IMG/VR virus record: IMGVR_UViG_3300046507_000878
Location: 1 to 60,561 of that record
Strand: one strand, 5' to 3'
Source of the DNA: a virus
Length of the DNA stretch: 60,561 nt
Made by a program: the position numbers and the translations under genes
Shown here: positions 4,819-45,682 of the stretch, piece after piece
Layout of the letters: each line of letters starts with the position of its first letter
Numbering within the stretch: the first letter of the stretch is position 1
The notes under the pieces: generated by a model
Seen by the model: the letters and a program-made list of their open reading frames with translations, nothing else
Told to the model about the DNA's origin: nothing
Database searches by the model: none

Positions 4819-6908
4819 GCCGCGACGGCCTGGCGTTGAGCTGCGCGCCATGGGTCATTGGCGCGGGCGAGGGCGGCCATCGGCGGCGGGCTTACGCTGT
4901 TGCCGCACATGTGGACCTGCTCGGTCTTCGTGAACGGCTTGCCGTCGGCGCCGTGCGTGATGATGTAGTCCGGCGGGAAGCCTTGCGCCCGGTAAAGTTC
5001 GGCCGGTTGCAGCATCCTCAGCCGGATATCGACGATCACATAGGGCGTTCCCTTGACCATGACGGTGACCAGGCCAAGCCGGTCCTTGGTGGTGATCGTG
5101 GGCGCCGGCTGATCGCAGGTGCTCATGTTCTCTGTGCCGTAGTAGCTGATCAGGAACGCAGCAACCCGCAGCGCGCCTTCTTCATGCTCAGGCGAAAGCT
5201 CAAAGCTGACCAGCGAACTCTTTCCTCCACCTCCGGCAGTGATCGTCGGAGATGGGTCGGTCAGTGCCTGACCGACGCTGGCGCCGAATTGCCGTTCCAT
5301 GAAGGCAGTCATCAGGCCGTGGTGCGTGCCGCCGGCGCTAACGGTGTGCAGGGGTCCATCCACCGCTCGGGCGTCACAGTTGCCGCGCAGGTGCAGCAGA
5401 CTCGCCGTTACCAGTTGCTGCTGACTGCCGGTATTCGTCACCGTGGTCATCGGGTCGTCGAGGCTTTTCGCATCGGTGGTGTTGAAGCCGCCGTTCATCT
5501 GCGCCATGAACGCAGTTGCCATGCCCATGGCGTGCGCCGCACCGGCGGGCCGCTGGTAGTTACCTCCGCTGGTGATTGTGGGAAGCGGCTCGTCCAACGC
5601 TTTGCCTTCGTCGTTGAACCGGAACTTGACCAGGTGCGCTGCTGCCAGCGCGTGCTTCACGCCGCCGGCGACTACCGTTCCGAGAGGCTGATCCATATCC
5701 TGTGTGCGCGGCTGCTGGCCTTCGCGTTCACCGTAACCGGTTTGCACGAGGGTAGGGCTGATCAATGTCAGTTCGCCGCGGTTGGCGCACGTCACGGTCG
5801 GCAGAGGTTCGAGCGGATTGTTGATCCGGGCGCTGCCCTGGTCCGTTGCTGGCGCGATCACTGGGCTGACGACAGAGAACGAACCGCCTTTCGGGTACGA
5901 CGTCACTGTGCGCAGCGGCTCATCCATTGACTGCACAGTCTCGGTCGACCAGTTTGCAATCGGCACGATGAAGGGGGCAGGGTTGTCGATAACGAACTTC
6001 TTCATGCCCTTGGCGATACGGCGCTTGGTGGCGTCGGCCAGTTCTTCCTTCCTGCCGAAAATGCTCTTGCCCAGGTCGCTGAAGTCGATGCACTCGGCAG
6101 CGGTGCGGTATTTCTGCTGGCCTTTGGCGGGCTTCTTGGCGTGTGTCGGCTCTGGCCACACAATCGGCTGACCGTCGCGGCGAGCAATCATGAATAGGCG
6201 CTCCCGACTGGTCGGCGCGCCAAAATCGCAGGCCTTAATGACACGCCACTCGACCGCGTAGCCCATGCCTTCCAGCAGATGTACGAAACGGCGCCAAGTG
6301 GTGCCGCGGCGCTTCGGATCAGGAACCAGAAACTGCTGGCTGACCGGGACAACCTCGCCAGGTGCGGCGACTACCTTCTCGATGACTTCCTTCCCCTTGG
6401 CGTTCAGTACGGTCACCAGCTTGATGGCCCGGCCGCTTTCCTGGTCGCGCTTGGCGATCAGCGGGCCCCACTGCAGGATCTGCTTCACGTTTTCCAGGCT
6501 GATGACGCGGGGCTTCTTCTTGCCTCCCCACTTCAAACCAATCCACGACAGGTTGCGGATCTCGCGCTTGCGCGGCTGACCGCCTGCTGCCTGGCTGTGA
6601 TGCGTGCAATCCGGCGACATGTGGAACCAGCCCACCGCTTTACCGCCGCACTCCGTATCCGGATCACCCTCGAACACGTCGGTGGTAAAGTGCTTGGCTC
6701 CAGGGTGGTTGATGGTGTGCATGCTTATCGCTTTGGCGCTGTGGTTTTTTGCCACGCTCACCTTACGGCCCAAGCCCATTTCCAGCCCGGTGCCCGCACC
6801 GCCACCGCCGCAGAAGAAGTCCACGACGATTTCATCGTCTTGCGGGTCGAAGCCAAGGCCGTACTGAGTTTTGAAATCGAACAGATGTTTCTTATGATGG
6901 GCGGACAT
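4815..6908 (-). CDS. dcm: DNA C5-cytosine methyltransferase
   Basis: 697 aa. Motif I is FFCGGGGAGTG at 31-41 (AdoMet binding). The catalytic Cys is Cys101 in SPDC, an insertion relative to the usual PC that is common in this large phage subfamily. Motif VI is ENV at 139-141, motif VIII is FGAPTSRERLF near 230-240, and the C-terminal motif is GNSVSPPP. Between VIII and the C-terminal motifs lie about eight copies of a P-x-x-T-(V/I)-(T/S/V) unit, which lengthen the target-recognition region. The expected role is self-methylation of phage DNA against host restriction. The leader has an AAGGATC ribosome site. Confidence 0.92.
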   Translation of the reverse strand: MSAHHKKHLFDFKTQYGLGFDPQDDEIVVDFFCGGGGAGTGLEMGLGRKVSVAKNHSAKAISMHTINHPGAKHFTTDVFEGDPDTECGGKAVGWFHMSPDCTHHSQAAGGQPRKREIRNLSWIGLKWGGKKKPRVISLENVKQILQWGPLIAKRDQESGRAIKLVTVLNAKGKEVIEKVVAAPGEVVPVSQQFLVPDPKRRGTTWRRFVHLLEGMGYAVEWRVIKACDFGAPTSRERLFMIARRDGQPIVWPEPTHAKKPAKGQQKYRTAAECIDFSDLGKSIFGRKEELADATKRRIAKGMKKFVIDNPAPFIVPIANWSTETVQSMDEPLRTVTSYPKGGSFSVVSPVIAPATDQGSARINNPLEPLPTVTCANRGELTLISPTLVQTGYGEREGQQPRTQDMDQPLGTVVAGGVKHALAAAHLVKFRFNDEGKALDEPLPTITSGGNYQRPAGAAHAMGMATAFMAQMNGGFNTTDAKSLDDPMTTVTNTGSQQQLVTASLLHLRGNCDARAVDGPLHTVSAGGTHHGLMTAFMERQFGASVGQALTDPSPTITAGGGGKSSLVSFELSPEHEEGALRVAAFLISYYGTENMSTCDQPAPTITTKDRLGLVTVMVKGTPYVIVDIRLRMLQPAELYRAQGFPPDYIITHGADGKPFTKTEQVHMCGNSVSPPPMAALARANDPWRAAQRQAVAA

Positions 6909-42124: not shown

Positions 42125-42883
42125 ATGCTGAAGCACATATTGAAGGCGGTGCAGACTCATGCCGCCGCCGAATACCCGCGGGAGTGTTGCGGCCTGCTGA
42201 TCAGCATCGGTCGCAAGCAACAGTACGTTCTGTGCGCCAATACGGCGACCGATCCCAAAGAAGAGTTCCGGATTGCTCCGGAAGATTACGCCGCGGCTGA
42301 AGACCAGGGCGAAGTGATCGGCATCATTCACTCGCACCCGGACGCGACAAGCAGGCCTTCGCCGCGCGATCTGGCAATGTGCGAAGCGACTGAACTGCCT
42401 TGGCATATCCTGAGCTGGCCCGAAGGCGACCTGCGCACGATTGTCCCGACGGGGCACACGCCCTTACTCGGTCGTCCGTTCGTGCACGGTGCCTGGGATT
42501 GCTGGCAGGTCTGCGCTGACTGGTACAAGCGCGAATGGGGGTTGGAGTTTGAAGCCTTCAAGCGCGATGACGGGTGGTGGGAGCGGGCCGACGGCCCGAG
42601 CCTGTACGAGCAGGCCTACGAGGCCGCCGGCTTCGAGCGGGTCGGCACGCCACAGCGCGGTGACATGATTGTGATGGAGGTCGGGCGCACCAAACACCCG
42701 AATCACGCTGGCATCTACCTCGGCGCCGATCCTGCGCTGCCCGGCGAGTCAACGGCAGTTCACGGCGCAGGTCCATTCCTGCTGCATCACATGTATGGCA
42801 AGCCTTCCGAGATCATCGTGTTCGGTGGTCCTTGGCATGACCGAGCACGCCTTATTCTCAGGCACCACGACGCGAAACAGTGA
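42125..42883 (+). CDS. K: Tail assembly protein K-like (MPN + NlpC/P60)
   Basis: 252 aa. N-terminal JAB/MPN metalloprotease with Glu20, HSHP (His69, His71) and Asp82. C-terminal NlpC/P60 peptidase with Cys126 in WDCWQV and His in HPNHAGIYLG. Same two-domain design as lambda K; needed for tail-tip maturation. Confidence 0.93.
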   Translation: MLKHILKAVQTHAAAEYPRECCGLLISIGRKQQYVLCANTATDPKEEFRIAPEDYAAAEDQGEVIGIIHSHPDATSRPSPRDLAMCEATELPWHILSWPEGDLRTIVPTGHTPLLGRPFVHGAWDCWQVCADWYKREWGLEFEAFKRDDGWWERADGPSLYEQAYEAAGFERVGTPQRGDMIVMEVGRTKHPNHAGIYLGADPALPGESTAVHGAGPFLLHHMYGKPSEIIVFGGPWHDRARLILRHHDAKQ

Positions 42884-42900
42884 GCGGCGAGGCCGCATAG

Positions 42901-43164
42901 GTGAGCCAAATGAAGGATTTATCGGAATGGCTGACCGAGCAAAACTTGGCTGATCTTGCTCGGTTCGCGAGTAGACCGCCCGAAGAACTCAGAAAGGTCA
43001 TCGTGACGGATGTCATGACTGAGGCGGCCATGGATTACATCCAAAGCTTGTATGATCCGCTGCTGTCGACCCACCTCTTAGAAGAGGTTTTCCGGATTAT
43101 GGCAGTTCTTCAGCCAAAGGATCAGGCAGGGAGAGCAGCGACTCTTTCACTTTCTCAGAGATAA
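42901..43164 (+). CDS. Doubtful hypothetical ORF, 87 aa
   Basis: GTG start right after a GCGGC-GAG-GCCGC hairpin. The sequence is helical and plausible as protein, but its last 68 bp lie antisense to the HEPN-motif gene and no strong ribosome site precedes it. It may be a cargo gene in the K-I gap or a chance frame. Confidence 0.35.
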   Translation: MSQMKDLSEWLTEQNLADLARFASRPPEELRKVIVTDVMTEAAMDYIQSLYDPLLSTHLLEEVFRIMAVLQPKDQAGRAATLSLSQR

Positions 43165-43717
43165 CATCCATTCGCGCAAGTACCTCTGCAACGGCTTCAG
43201 GCGGTACATCAGGATGCTGTATCAGGCCCGCAAATAAGCTTAGCGCCGAGAAGGTGGTAATCAGTCCAATCGATAGTTGCTTGAGGCTGTGGAGCGTAAA
43301 TTCCTTTATAACCTGAGAGTCGTCCGTGTTTCGCCGCATGACGTTTGACGCTTGAGCCGATTCTCTACCCTCGGGGGAGGGGTACCATTGCCAGTGAGCG
43401 ACTTCATTCCGGAGCAGTGATAGCTTGCGGTACTCCCCAATGGCGGTGCCCAGGCGTGCGTTCAGCTCGCTGCTGATCGACGGTTGTTTTGCCTTGGCAA
43501 GATCTATGATGGCTTTAGTCATTCCCCCAGCTTTCAGATTTAGCGATTGCACTAAGATGTAAGCAGTATCAACTGAGACCCCGGCCAGCGCGACAAACAA
43601 GTCAAGTAGCGGCTGGTCACAAAGAGCGTGGTTGATGACAACCTGCCCGATTTCCTGCTTCATTGCGTCGCTAGGCCCGGCTCTGTAGCCCCACTCTCCA
43701 GACTTTCCATTACTCAC
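43097..43717 (-). CDS. HEPN-motif protein in the tail operon (candidate defence)
   Basis: 206 aa, GTG start with AGGAGG 5 bases before. The all-helical protein carries RNEVAH at residues 103-108, the R-x4-H signature of HEPN ribonuclease domains, in the usual context LSLLRNEVAHWQW. HEPN RNases act in abortive infection and toxin systems. It is the only minus-strand gene within the late operon, so it is expressed independently, probably in the lysogen. No antitoxin gene is next to it, unless the ORF at 42,901 plays that part. A structural HEPN without RNase activity is possible. Confidence 0.65.
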   Translation of the reverse strand: MSNGKSGEWGYRAGPSDAMKQEIGQVVINHALCDQPLLDLFVALAGVSVDTAYILVQSLNLKAGGMTKAIIDLAKAKQPSISSELNARLGTAIGEYRKLSLLRNEVAHWQWYPSPEGRESAQASNVMRRNTDDSQVIKEFTLHSLKQLSIGLITTFSALSLFAGLIQHPDVPPEAVAEVLARMDVISEKVKESLLSLPDPLAEELP

Positions 43718-43895
43718 ATTGACCTCCTAGGTCATATTGCCCCGGTCCATGGGCTTGCAGGCAACGGCCGTGGCGATTCGTTGGAGGCGAAAAGCTACTA
43801 CGCCGTGTACCACCGCTGTTACTGATCGTTTGTCCAGCGCTGGATGGGTAGACAGGCCGGTGATACGCTCAGCCCTTTCTTGTTGAGGGATCATC

Positions 43896-44243
43896 ATGCG
43901 GGTGTTGGCAGGGGCTATGGCTGTAATGTTACTGGCGGGATGTGCGAAGTCCATAACGGAACTGCGTCAGGCTGGGCCCGAGGCGAGGTTGTACTCCAGT
44001 AAGTCGGTGGACGATGTATCCAAATGTATTGTTTTTGCGTGGCAAGGGTTCACATCTTATGGGGACCACCTTGAAGTATTCATGCTGCCGAGTCGGGGCG
44101 GAGGTTCTACCGTATTCACCCGCCAGAACCAGTTCGTGGTTGATGTCGATCCAACTCAAGGGCGGACGCAAGTACTCTTTTTTCAGAGCGGCGATGGCAA
44201 CATGAGCCGAACTCTGCTCGGAAATGTTAAGTCGTGTCTTTAA
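43896..44243 (+). CDS. Phage-encoded lipoprotein, 115 aa
   Basis: Signal peptide with lipobox LLAGC at residues 12-16. Mature part of about 100 residues, beta-rich (HLEVFMLPSRGGGSTVFTRQNQFVVDVD). Between tail genes K and I, as is the next lipoprotein. In other phages outer-membrane lipoproteins of this size (such as T5 Llp) mask the receptor and block superinfection; whether this one does so is not known. Confidence 0.7.
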   Translation: MRVLAGAMAVMLLAGCAKSITELRQAGPEARLYSSKSVDDVSKCIVFAWQGFTSYGDHLEVFMLPSRGGGSTVFTRQNQFVVDVDPTQGRTQVLFFQSGDGNMSRTLLGNVKSCL

Positions 44244-44283: not shown

Positions 44284-44715
44284 ATGCGAATTCTGATTGG
44301 GGCACTTGCTGTTGCCCTGCTGACAGGTTGCGGTACTACGCCGGTATCATCAAAGGATGCGAAACCTGTCCCGGCAAACCGAATACTCGGATTTCAGTCA
44401 TCTGTGAAAGATGGCGGTACCGTCGTGGTCACGCGTGATAACGGCTGGACAGCCGGGGGCGGTTGTTATGTAGCCTTGTTGGTTGACGGTCATGTCGCTG
44501 CGCGGGTTGGTACCGGTGAGGTCGTTCGACTTCAATTAACGCCTGGCCGCCACATCGTCGGCATGTCTGGTGACTCTGAAGGTGGCGGGCTGTGTGGTAT
44601 GCAGGTGGGGCAGCCAGTCAAAGAGTCTGCAGCGGAAATAAAGCCAAGAGAAACCCAGAAGTATCGAATATCAGGTGATACAAATGGGTTAGACCTCCGG
44701 CCCACGTCACTTTGA
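44284..44715 (+). CDS. Second phage-encoded lipoprotein, 143 aa
   Basis: Lipobox LLTGC at residues 12-16 after MRILIGALAVA. The mature part is Gly-rich beta (GGGCYVALLVDGHVAARVGTGEVVRLQLTPGRHIVGM), like DUF2846-type or PEGA-like small lipoproteins. Its signal peptide closely resembles that of the 43,896 gene, which suggests duplication. Followed by an intrinsic terminator. Confidence 0.75.
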   Translation: MRILIGALAVALLTGCGTTPVSSKDAKPVPANRILGFQSSVKDGGTVVVTRDNGWTAGGGCYVALLVDGHVAARVGTGEVVRLQLTPGRHIVGMSGDSEGGGLCGMQVGQPVKESAAEIKPRETQKYRISGDTNGLDLRPTSL

Positions 44716-44748: not shown

Positions 44749-44760
44749 ATGGGGAAGAAA

Positions 44761-45369
44761 ATGTCAGGTCTTGCAATCCAGTACACGCCCCGAACCATTA
44801 TTGAACTCGGTAGCATCCTTGGAAGAAAGTTCTTTCGAAGCATGCCGTTCCAGCTTGATACAGGGAGTGCTTGGGAAGTGTTTCGTGCCTTGAAGTCTGC
44901 CGTCCCCGGATTTTCCGTAGAAATCTTGAGGTTGCAGAGGCTTGGGATGGAGTTCGCCATCTTCCGGAATGGCGAGAACGTAGGGTCTGAAAATTTCGAC
45001 TTGGGCGGTACTAGAACGCTTCGTATCGTCCCGGTAATCAAAGGCGGAAAACGTGCCGGAGCCCTGCAGACGATCATCGGTGTGGTCCTCATAATCGCGG
45101 GCTATGCGCTCTCGGGGTTTACAGGTGGCGCCAGTATGTCGCTTGTAGCACCCGGGGTAGCACTCGCCGCCGGCGGTGTAATCCAAATGCTCAGCCCTCA
45201 AGCTTCAGGCCTGAAGCAGAGTGCTTCGCCCGACAACTTGCCCTCATATGCCTTCGGCAGCGCCAAAAACACCGTGGCGAGCGGAAACCCCGTCCCGATC
45301 TGCATAGGCGAACGCCGGTGGGGCGGAGCGATCATTTCCGCTTCGATTCTCGCGGAAGACAAAACCTGA
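44761..45369 (+). CDS. I: Tail assembly protein I-like
   Basis: 202 aa from the ATG at 44,761 (GGGGAAG before). TRTLRIVPVIKGGKRAGALQTIIGVVLIIAGYALSG and the glycine-rich membrane-like centre fit lambda tail assembly protein I. Required with K for tail-tip assembly. Separated from K by the accessory genes. Confidence 0.9.
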   Translation: MSGLAIQYTPRTIIELGSILGRKFFRSMPFQLDTGSAWEVFRALKSAVPGFSVEILRLQRLGMEFAIFRNGENVGSENFDLGGTRTLRIVPVIKGGKRAGALQTIIGVVLIIAGYALSGFTGGASMSLVAPGVALAAGGVIQMLSPQASGLKQSASPDNLPSYAFGSAKNTVASGNPVPICIGERRWGGAIISASILAEDKT

Positions 45370-45566: not shown

Positions 45567-45682
45567 GTGCCCAAGAATCCCGTCCGGGATACCGTGCAGG
45601 CTAGGTTCGCTACCGAAAAGGGTCGGTTTCGCTCCGCCTACGCCTCTGCCTGCACACCTCATTTAGGCGGAAGGAGCTGCAA

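Follow-up and report, generated by a model that had tools for sequence, protein, structure and literature searches.

A HEPN-like gene antisense to the tail operon of a Pseudomonas prophage and its overlapping sense partner as a candidate defence/counter-defence pair

In Staphylococcus aureus prophages, the HEPN RNase Tha is triggered by minor tail proteins and is blocked by Ith, the product of a small overlapping antisense gene (PMC11087260). In the Pseudomonas aeruginosa phage JBD26, a defence gene (tab) is accompanied by an antidote gene on the sense strand (anti-tab), and this pair has been shown to work (PMC10884400). A third pair, Tai/Ati of phi80 and its relatives, consists of a defence gene that lies antisense within the Q-controlled late operon and a late counter-defence gene (PMC11364771); like the other two, it was shown to combine defence with self-protection. 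Here we describe a locus of comparable layout in the tail operon encoded by IMG/VR record IMGVR_UViG_3300046507_000878, the 60,561 nucleotides of which (positions 1 to 60,561) are referred to as the window. On balance we favour the reading that the locus is a prophage defence/counter-defence pair, in which a HEPN effector and a late partner would work like Tha/Ith and Tab/anti-Tab; defence, RNase activity and inhibition are proposed here because the published systems share the same layout. The features of the locus are as follows.

42125-42883, plus strand: homologue of tail gene K (JAB and NlpC/P60), the left border of the slot
42910-43164, plus strand: partner gene, 84 aa from ATG 42910 (87 aa from GTG 42901), pI of about 4.8, phrog_25599
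43097-43164: convergent 3' overlap of the partner and the HEPN-like gene, 68 nt
43097-43717, minus strand: HEPN-like protein of 206 aa, putative RNase effector, phrog_26374
43394-43411, minus strand: RNEVAH, codons 103-108 of the HEPN-like gene
43721-43733, minus strand: GACCTAGGAGGTC, a Shine-Dalgarno sequence within a short inverted repeat
43739-43774, minus strand: leader hairpin with the invariant loop GCCTGCAAGCCC, supported by covariation
43794-43837, minus strand: promoter-like conserved upstream region, with CTGGACAAACGATCAGTAAC at 43818-43837 and GTAGTAGC at 43794-43801
43896-44243, plus strand: lipoprotein-like gene, phrog_914
44284-44715, plus strand: lipoprotein gene, phrog_890
44749-45369, plus strand: homologue of tail gene I, the right border of the slot

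The minus-strand frame is a real gene. A sequence-only reading of the window had pointed to it as a HEPN-motif gene with its own ribosome site, and it indeed starts with GTG downstream of an AGGAGG; its reading frame is under purifying selection, with a dN/dS as low as that of the partner, and its product falls into a phrog annotated without a function. That reading had also placed two lipoprotein genes beside it, which is what we find, and had called it the only minus-strand gene in 26 kb of late genes. By a rough GC3-based call there is no other credible minus-strand gene between about 28.5 and 52.7 kb, but this span amounts to about 24 kb.

HEPN RNases carry an R-x4-6-H motif in which the arginine is followed by a polar residue. 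Residues 103-108 of the protein do read RNEVAH, as had been noted, and R-x4-H alone would be weak evidence, because it arises by chance in 14% of the sequences obtained when the protein is shuffled at constant composition (R[NDH]xxxH arises in 1.4%). We count the motif as real because it is invariant in homologues, the very point on which the sequence-only reading had said that it could be refuted: Arg-103, His-108, Trp-109, and Trp-111 are unchanged across 21 homologues from two subfamilies, at identities down to 21%. Of these 21, 19 make up the set without the second subfamily; the eighteen that join the window's own protein in it come from viral contigs, are at least 34% identical, and all keep Arg-103, Asn-104, Ala-107, His-108, Trp-109, and Trp-111. 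In the second subfamily, which is 21-24% identical, the motif is RHKIVHWQW, with the Arg, the His, and both Trp residues kept. Across homologues the residue after the arginine is Asn or His (R-[NH]-x3-H-W-x-W), so that a conserved R-x4-6-H with a polar residue in this place, of the type RNEVAH or RHKIVH, is found in 21 sequences. Tha has the R-N-x3-H form of the motif as well (R265NSIMH270).

The AlphaFold2 model of the protein (pLDDT 85) has a helical core and one beta hairpin, at residues 120-141, so that the earlier description of it as all-helical is nearly right; the motif lies at the end of the helix spanning residues 83-108, and the hairpin comes after it. Among the weak VIA fold matches are the HEPN chain of Csm6 (Z 6.7) and HepT (Z 6.0), RNases with which the protein shares the R-x4-6-H motif. 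Because unrelated helical bundles are also among the matches and score alike, the model is compatible with a HEPN fold but is not diagnostic; further, the locus differs from HepT and Csm6 in having no nucleotidyltransferase or CARF partner. Foldseek returned no PDB match at E<=0.001 and a single unnamed phage protein in BFVD (5e-4), and a profile search of the PDB gave no related entry. The Pfam, NCBIfam, and PADLOC HMMs produced chance-level matches only, none of them to HEPN, and hhalign detected no relation to AbiU2-type proteins (HEPN_AbiU2; probability 0.5%) or to another RNxxxH protein, so that neither HMM libraries nor profile comparison assign the 206-aa protein to a named HEPN family. 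By the same method no sequence relation was detected between the HEPN-like protein and Tha-1 (probability 0.4%) or between the partner and Ith-1 (0.1%), and we therefore describe the pair as one that may work like Tha/Ith and not as a member of that system. By analogy, the HEPN-like protein is probably an RNA-cutting defence protein.

The convergent frame on the plus strand, 42901-43164, which had been suggested as a possible antidote, is also a real gene under purifying selection (dN/dS of about 0.12 outside the overlap). The start conserved in its homologues is probably the ATG at 42910, 27 nt downstream of the K stop codon, and not the GTG at 42901. A single-sequence AlphaFold2 model of the partner was uninformative (pLDDT 53). 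As in Tha/Ith, this small convergent gene overlaps the 3' end of the HEPN gene, by 68 nt here and by 64 nt in tha-1/ith-1 of 80alpha. We note that an inverted repeat, GCGGC-N3-GCCGC (42884-42900 in the window), recurs between the K stop codon and the partner start at many loci, and that the deposited annotation of phage D14C (BK061477; L020 in our set) omits the partner at 6420-6659 and lists a wrong-strand ORF instead.

The two genes are tightly linked. In IMG/VR, the convergent partner is present in 46 of 48 contigs that encode the HEPN-like protein; one of the two exceptions ends at the gene, and in the other (L226, the same contig as L019) the HEPN homologue lies away from any tail operon, beside a terminase-like gene, and has no recognisable partner. 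Conversely, 38 of 40 partner-encoding contigs have the HEPN gene, and of 50,697 phage records, three carry it and these three alone have the partner. The pair is found in the K-I, M-L (for example, in phages D14C and PP9W2), and I-J gaps of the tail operon and moves between them as one unit; in each gap the partner is sense and the HEPN gene antisense, without exception. By hhalign, the partners that go with one HEPN subfamily are related to those of the other (probability 87.6%, E 3.5e-6), and HEPN distances correlate with partner distances (Mantel rho 0.53, p 0.003) but not clearly with K distances (rho 0.22, p 0.12). The HEPN proteins have a mean identity of 47% and the partners 67%, a difference that would fit diversification of a sensing surface alongside a constant site for the inhibitor. 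Two contigs hold orphan partners without the HEPN gene (L166, 3004-3267; L172, 606-902), and L172 retains a C-terminal remnant of the HEPN gene within the overlap; orphan inhibitors are likewise known from Tha/Ith, where Ith-2 is a reported evasion factor (PMC11087260). Linkage, 3' overlap, purifying selection, joint transfer, and orphans together strengthen the antidote suggestion, and, by analogy with these systems, the partner is probably the inhibitor, or off-switch, of the HEPN-like protein. One contig with the HEPN pair, leader, and Pseudomonas-type tail operon (L142) comes from a metagenome-assembled genome labelled Methylotenera and is probably a misbinned Pseudomonas prophage contig.

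The nearly obligate linkage would also suit an addiction toxin-antitoxin pair, in which the partner acts as a constitutive antitoxin, any production of the HEPN protein is toxic, and phage defence is secondary; toxins of the HEPN kind that have a small partner are common, and HepT/MntA is among the weak fold matches. We consider this improbable. The two genes are convergent, whereas toxin and antitoxin of a type II operon are co-transcribed, and the partner follows K at a distance of 24-27 nt in the tail operon, which is late and should be silent in the lysogen, the wrong place for an antitoxin that is needed there.

Under the defence/counter-defence reading, the lysogen would produce the HEPN-like protein by way of the promoter and leader that belong to its gene. 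The protein would remain inactive until it is triggered by a late (structural) product that an incoming phage makes, whereupon it would cut RNA via Arg-103 and His-108 and abort the infection. Upon induction of the prophage, transcription of the late operon would read on from K into the gene for the 84-aa partner, the partner protein would bind and block the HEPN-like protein, and head-on transcription may also reduce the HEPN mRNA; with the effector blocked, the resident prophage could complete its own tails. When 80alpha ith-1 was placed under the late promoter, it acted too late (PMC11087260), so that an inhibitor encoded in a late operon would require the trigger to be late as well, the simplest candidate being a tail protein. 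The arrangement differs from that of Tha/Ith, in which tha belongs to the cI operon and ith is read from a separate promoter; in the present locus it is the HEPN gene that comes with a leader of its own, and the partner is part of the tail operon. Further, Tha is a protein of 301 aa with a large N-terminal region. With Tab/anti-Tab the locus shares a Pseudomonas host, a defence gene that lies on the minus strand within a late operon and has a promoter of its own (the promoter here being suggested by the conserved upstream region), and a sense partner immediately after a late gene, but Tab is an 83-aa, non-HEPN tape-measure binder encoded between terminase genes, and size and motif differ. Tai/Ati likewise combines an antisense defence gene with a counter-defence gene in the late operon, although the proteins and the position are others, and some partners in the slot described below are themselves similar to J fragments.

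The HEPN genes are immediately preceded by a leader of the layout CCCAGTCCTT-GCCTGCAAGCCC-AAGGACTGGG. Most copies have a second hairpin (GCGCC-AATTTC-GGCGC), and the Shine-Dalgarno sequence follows the hairpin(s) within GACCT(A)GGAGGTC; the leader of the window (43718-43783) is a variant without the second hairpin. Helix 1 shows 25 double-change cells compared with 8.2 in shuffles (0/500), and no Rfam family matches the leader. The 19-mer of the loop has exact matches in at least 119 IMG/VR stretches, and, of 299 Pseudomonas genomes, 60 contain the leader according to a covariance model, which found it in none of the 273 other Gammaproteobacteria sampled. At about 50 loci an additional region is conserved upstream ((C/G)TG(T/G)A...CAGTAAC, 17-18 nt, TAGTAGC), which is presumably the promoter; at other loci the leader comes right behind a different antisense gene, with no gap after its stop codon. 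The CTG-N10-CAG within this region resembles a LexA/SOS box, but 12 of 51 copies have GTG as the left half, and we therefore do not claim this reading.

In all 114 testable IMG/VR contigs the leader runs antisense to tail genes; K and I are both seen as its flanking genes in 72 and one of them in most others, and nearly all copies lie between K and I. The sequence-only reading mentioned neither the leader nor this slot. Behind it lies exchangeable cargo of at least 20 unrelated protein families, mostly of 60-95 aa, in addition to both HEPN subfamilies; the cargo includes a NucS-type (NucS_C) nuclease (L058, 12319 onward) and a protein with a DTGA motif seen by eye (L029 and L104), which may be an aspartic, retropepsin-like protease. 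A role for the small cargo as SOS antirepressors, as in Gifsy phages, was dropped, as no link to repressors was found. Most cargo families have a sense-strand ORF of their own 24-27 nt past the K stop codon (87 of 97 called), and these cargo-specific ORFs abut or overlap the 3' end of their cargo. Among 79 distinct partners, 24 resemble parts of the tail-tip protein J at E<=0.01, compared with 0-1 of the shuffled controls, 1 of 90 cargo proteins, and 0 of 15 HEPN partners. Examples of J-like ORFs after K (up to 53% over 30 aa) are those of L071, L098, L107, L085, and L138, among others, and one partner matches Pfam Phage_Tail_Tip at E 6.8e-4, slightly under the cut-off.

Because they lie in the tail operon, and because those of other cargo families resemble J, the partners could instead be tail or virion components that are carried along, with the HEPN gene being an independent superinfection or lysogenic-conversion gene. 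This, too, is unlikely in our view: the HEPN partners are not J-like, and a change of cargo brings a change of partner, the two also relocating together to other gaps. A further alternative, that the main role of the antisense unit is to regulate the tail operon, through antisense transcription or the leader RNA, with the protein mattering little, would agree with the antisense orientation of every testable leader copy but is very unlikely given that the cargo proteins are diverse and conserved and that the HEPN frame is under purifying selection.

Returning to defence and counter-defence, we tentatively propose that the K-I gap of Pseudomonas lambdoid prophages may be a standard slot for antisense defence genes that use one shared leader and each face a counter-defence gene in the tail operon, many of these being decoys that imitate the piece of J attacked by the small cargo, and that the HEPN pair may be the enzymatic member. 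The notion that the J-like partners of non-HEPN cargo are possible decoys is extrapolated from Tai, for which escape mutations map to the C-terminus of J (PMC11364771), and it makes a direct, testable prediction of the binding target of the small defence proteins. A literature search, which covered few subscription journals, did not find this HEPN family, its inhibitor, the leader, or the K-I slot. If the proposal is right, it would add a HEPN effector to the small number of known prophage defences whose off-switch is an overlapping, late-read gene, and it would give a Pseudomonas-specific site, with the leader as a searchable mark, and dozens of candidate defence/counter-defence pairs. Finally, we note that a stretch further along the window (45594-45668, plus strand) is a near-threshold match to the Rfam int-alpA RNA (34.9 bits against a gathering score of 35.8) and directly precedes a KilA-N/ORF11CD3 gene that sits between I and J.
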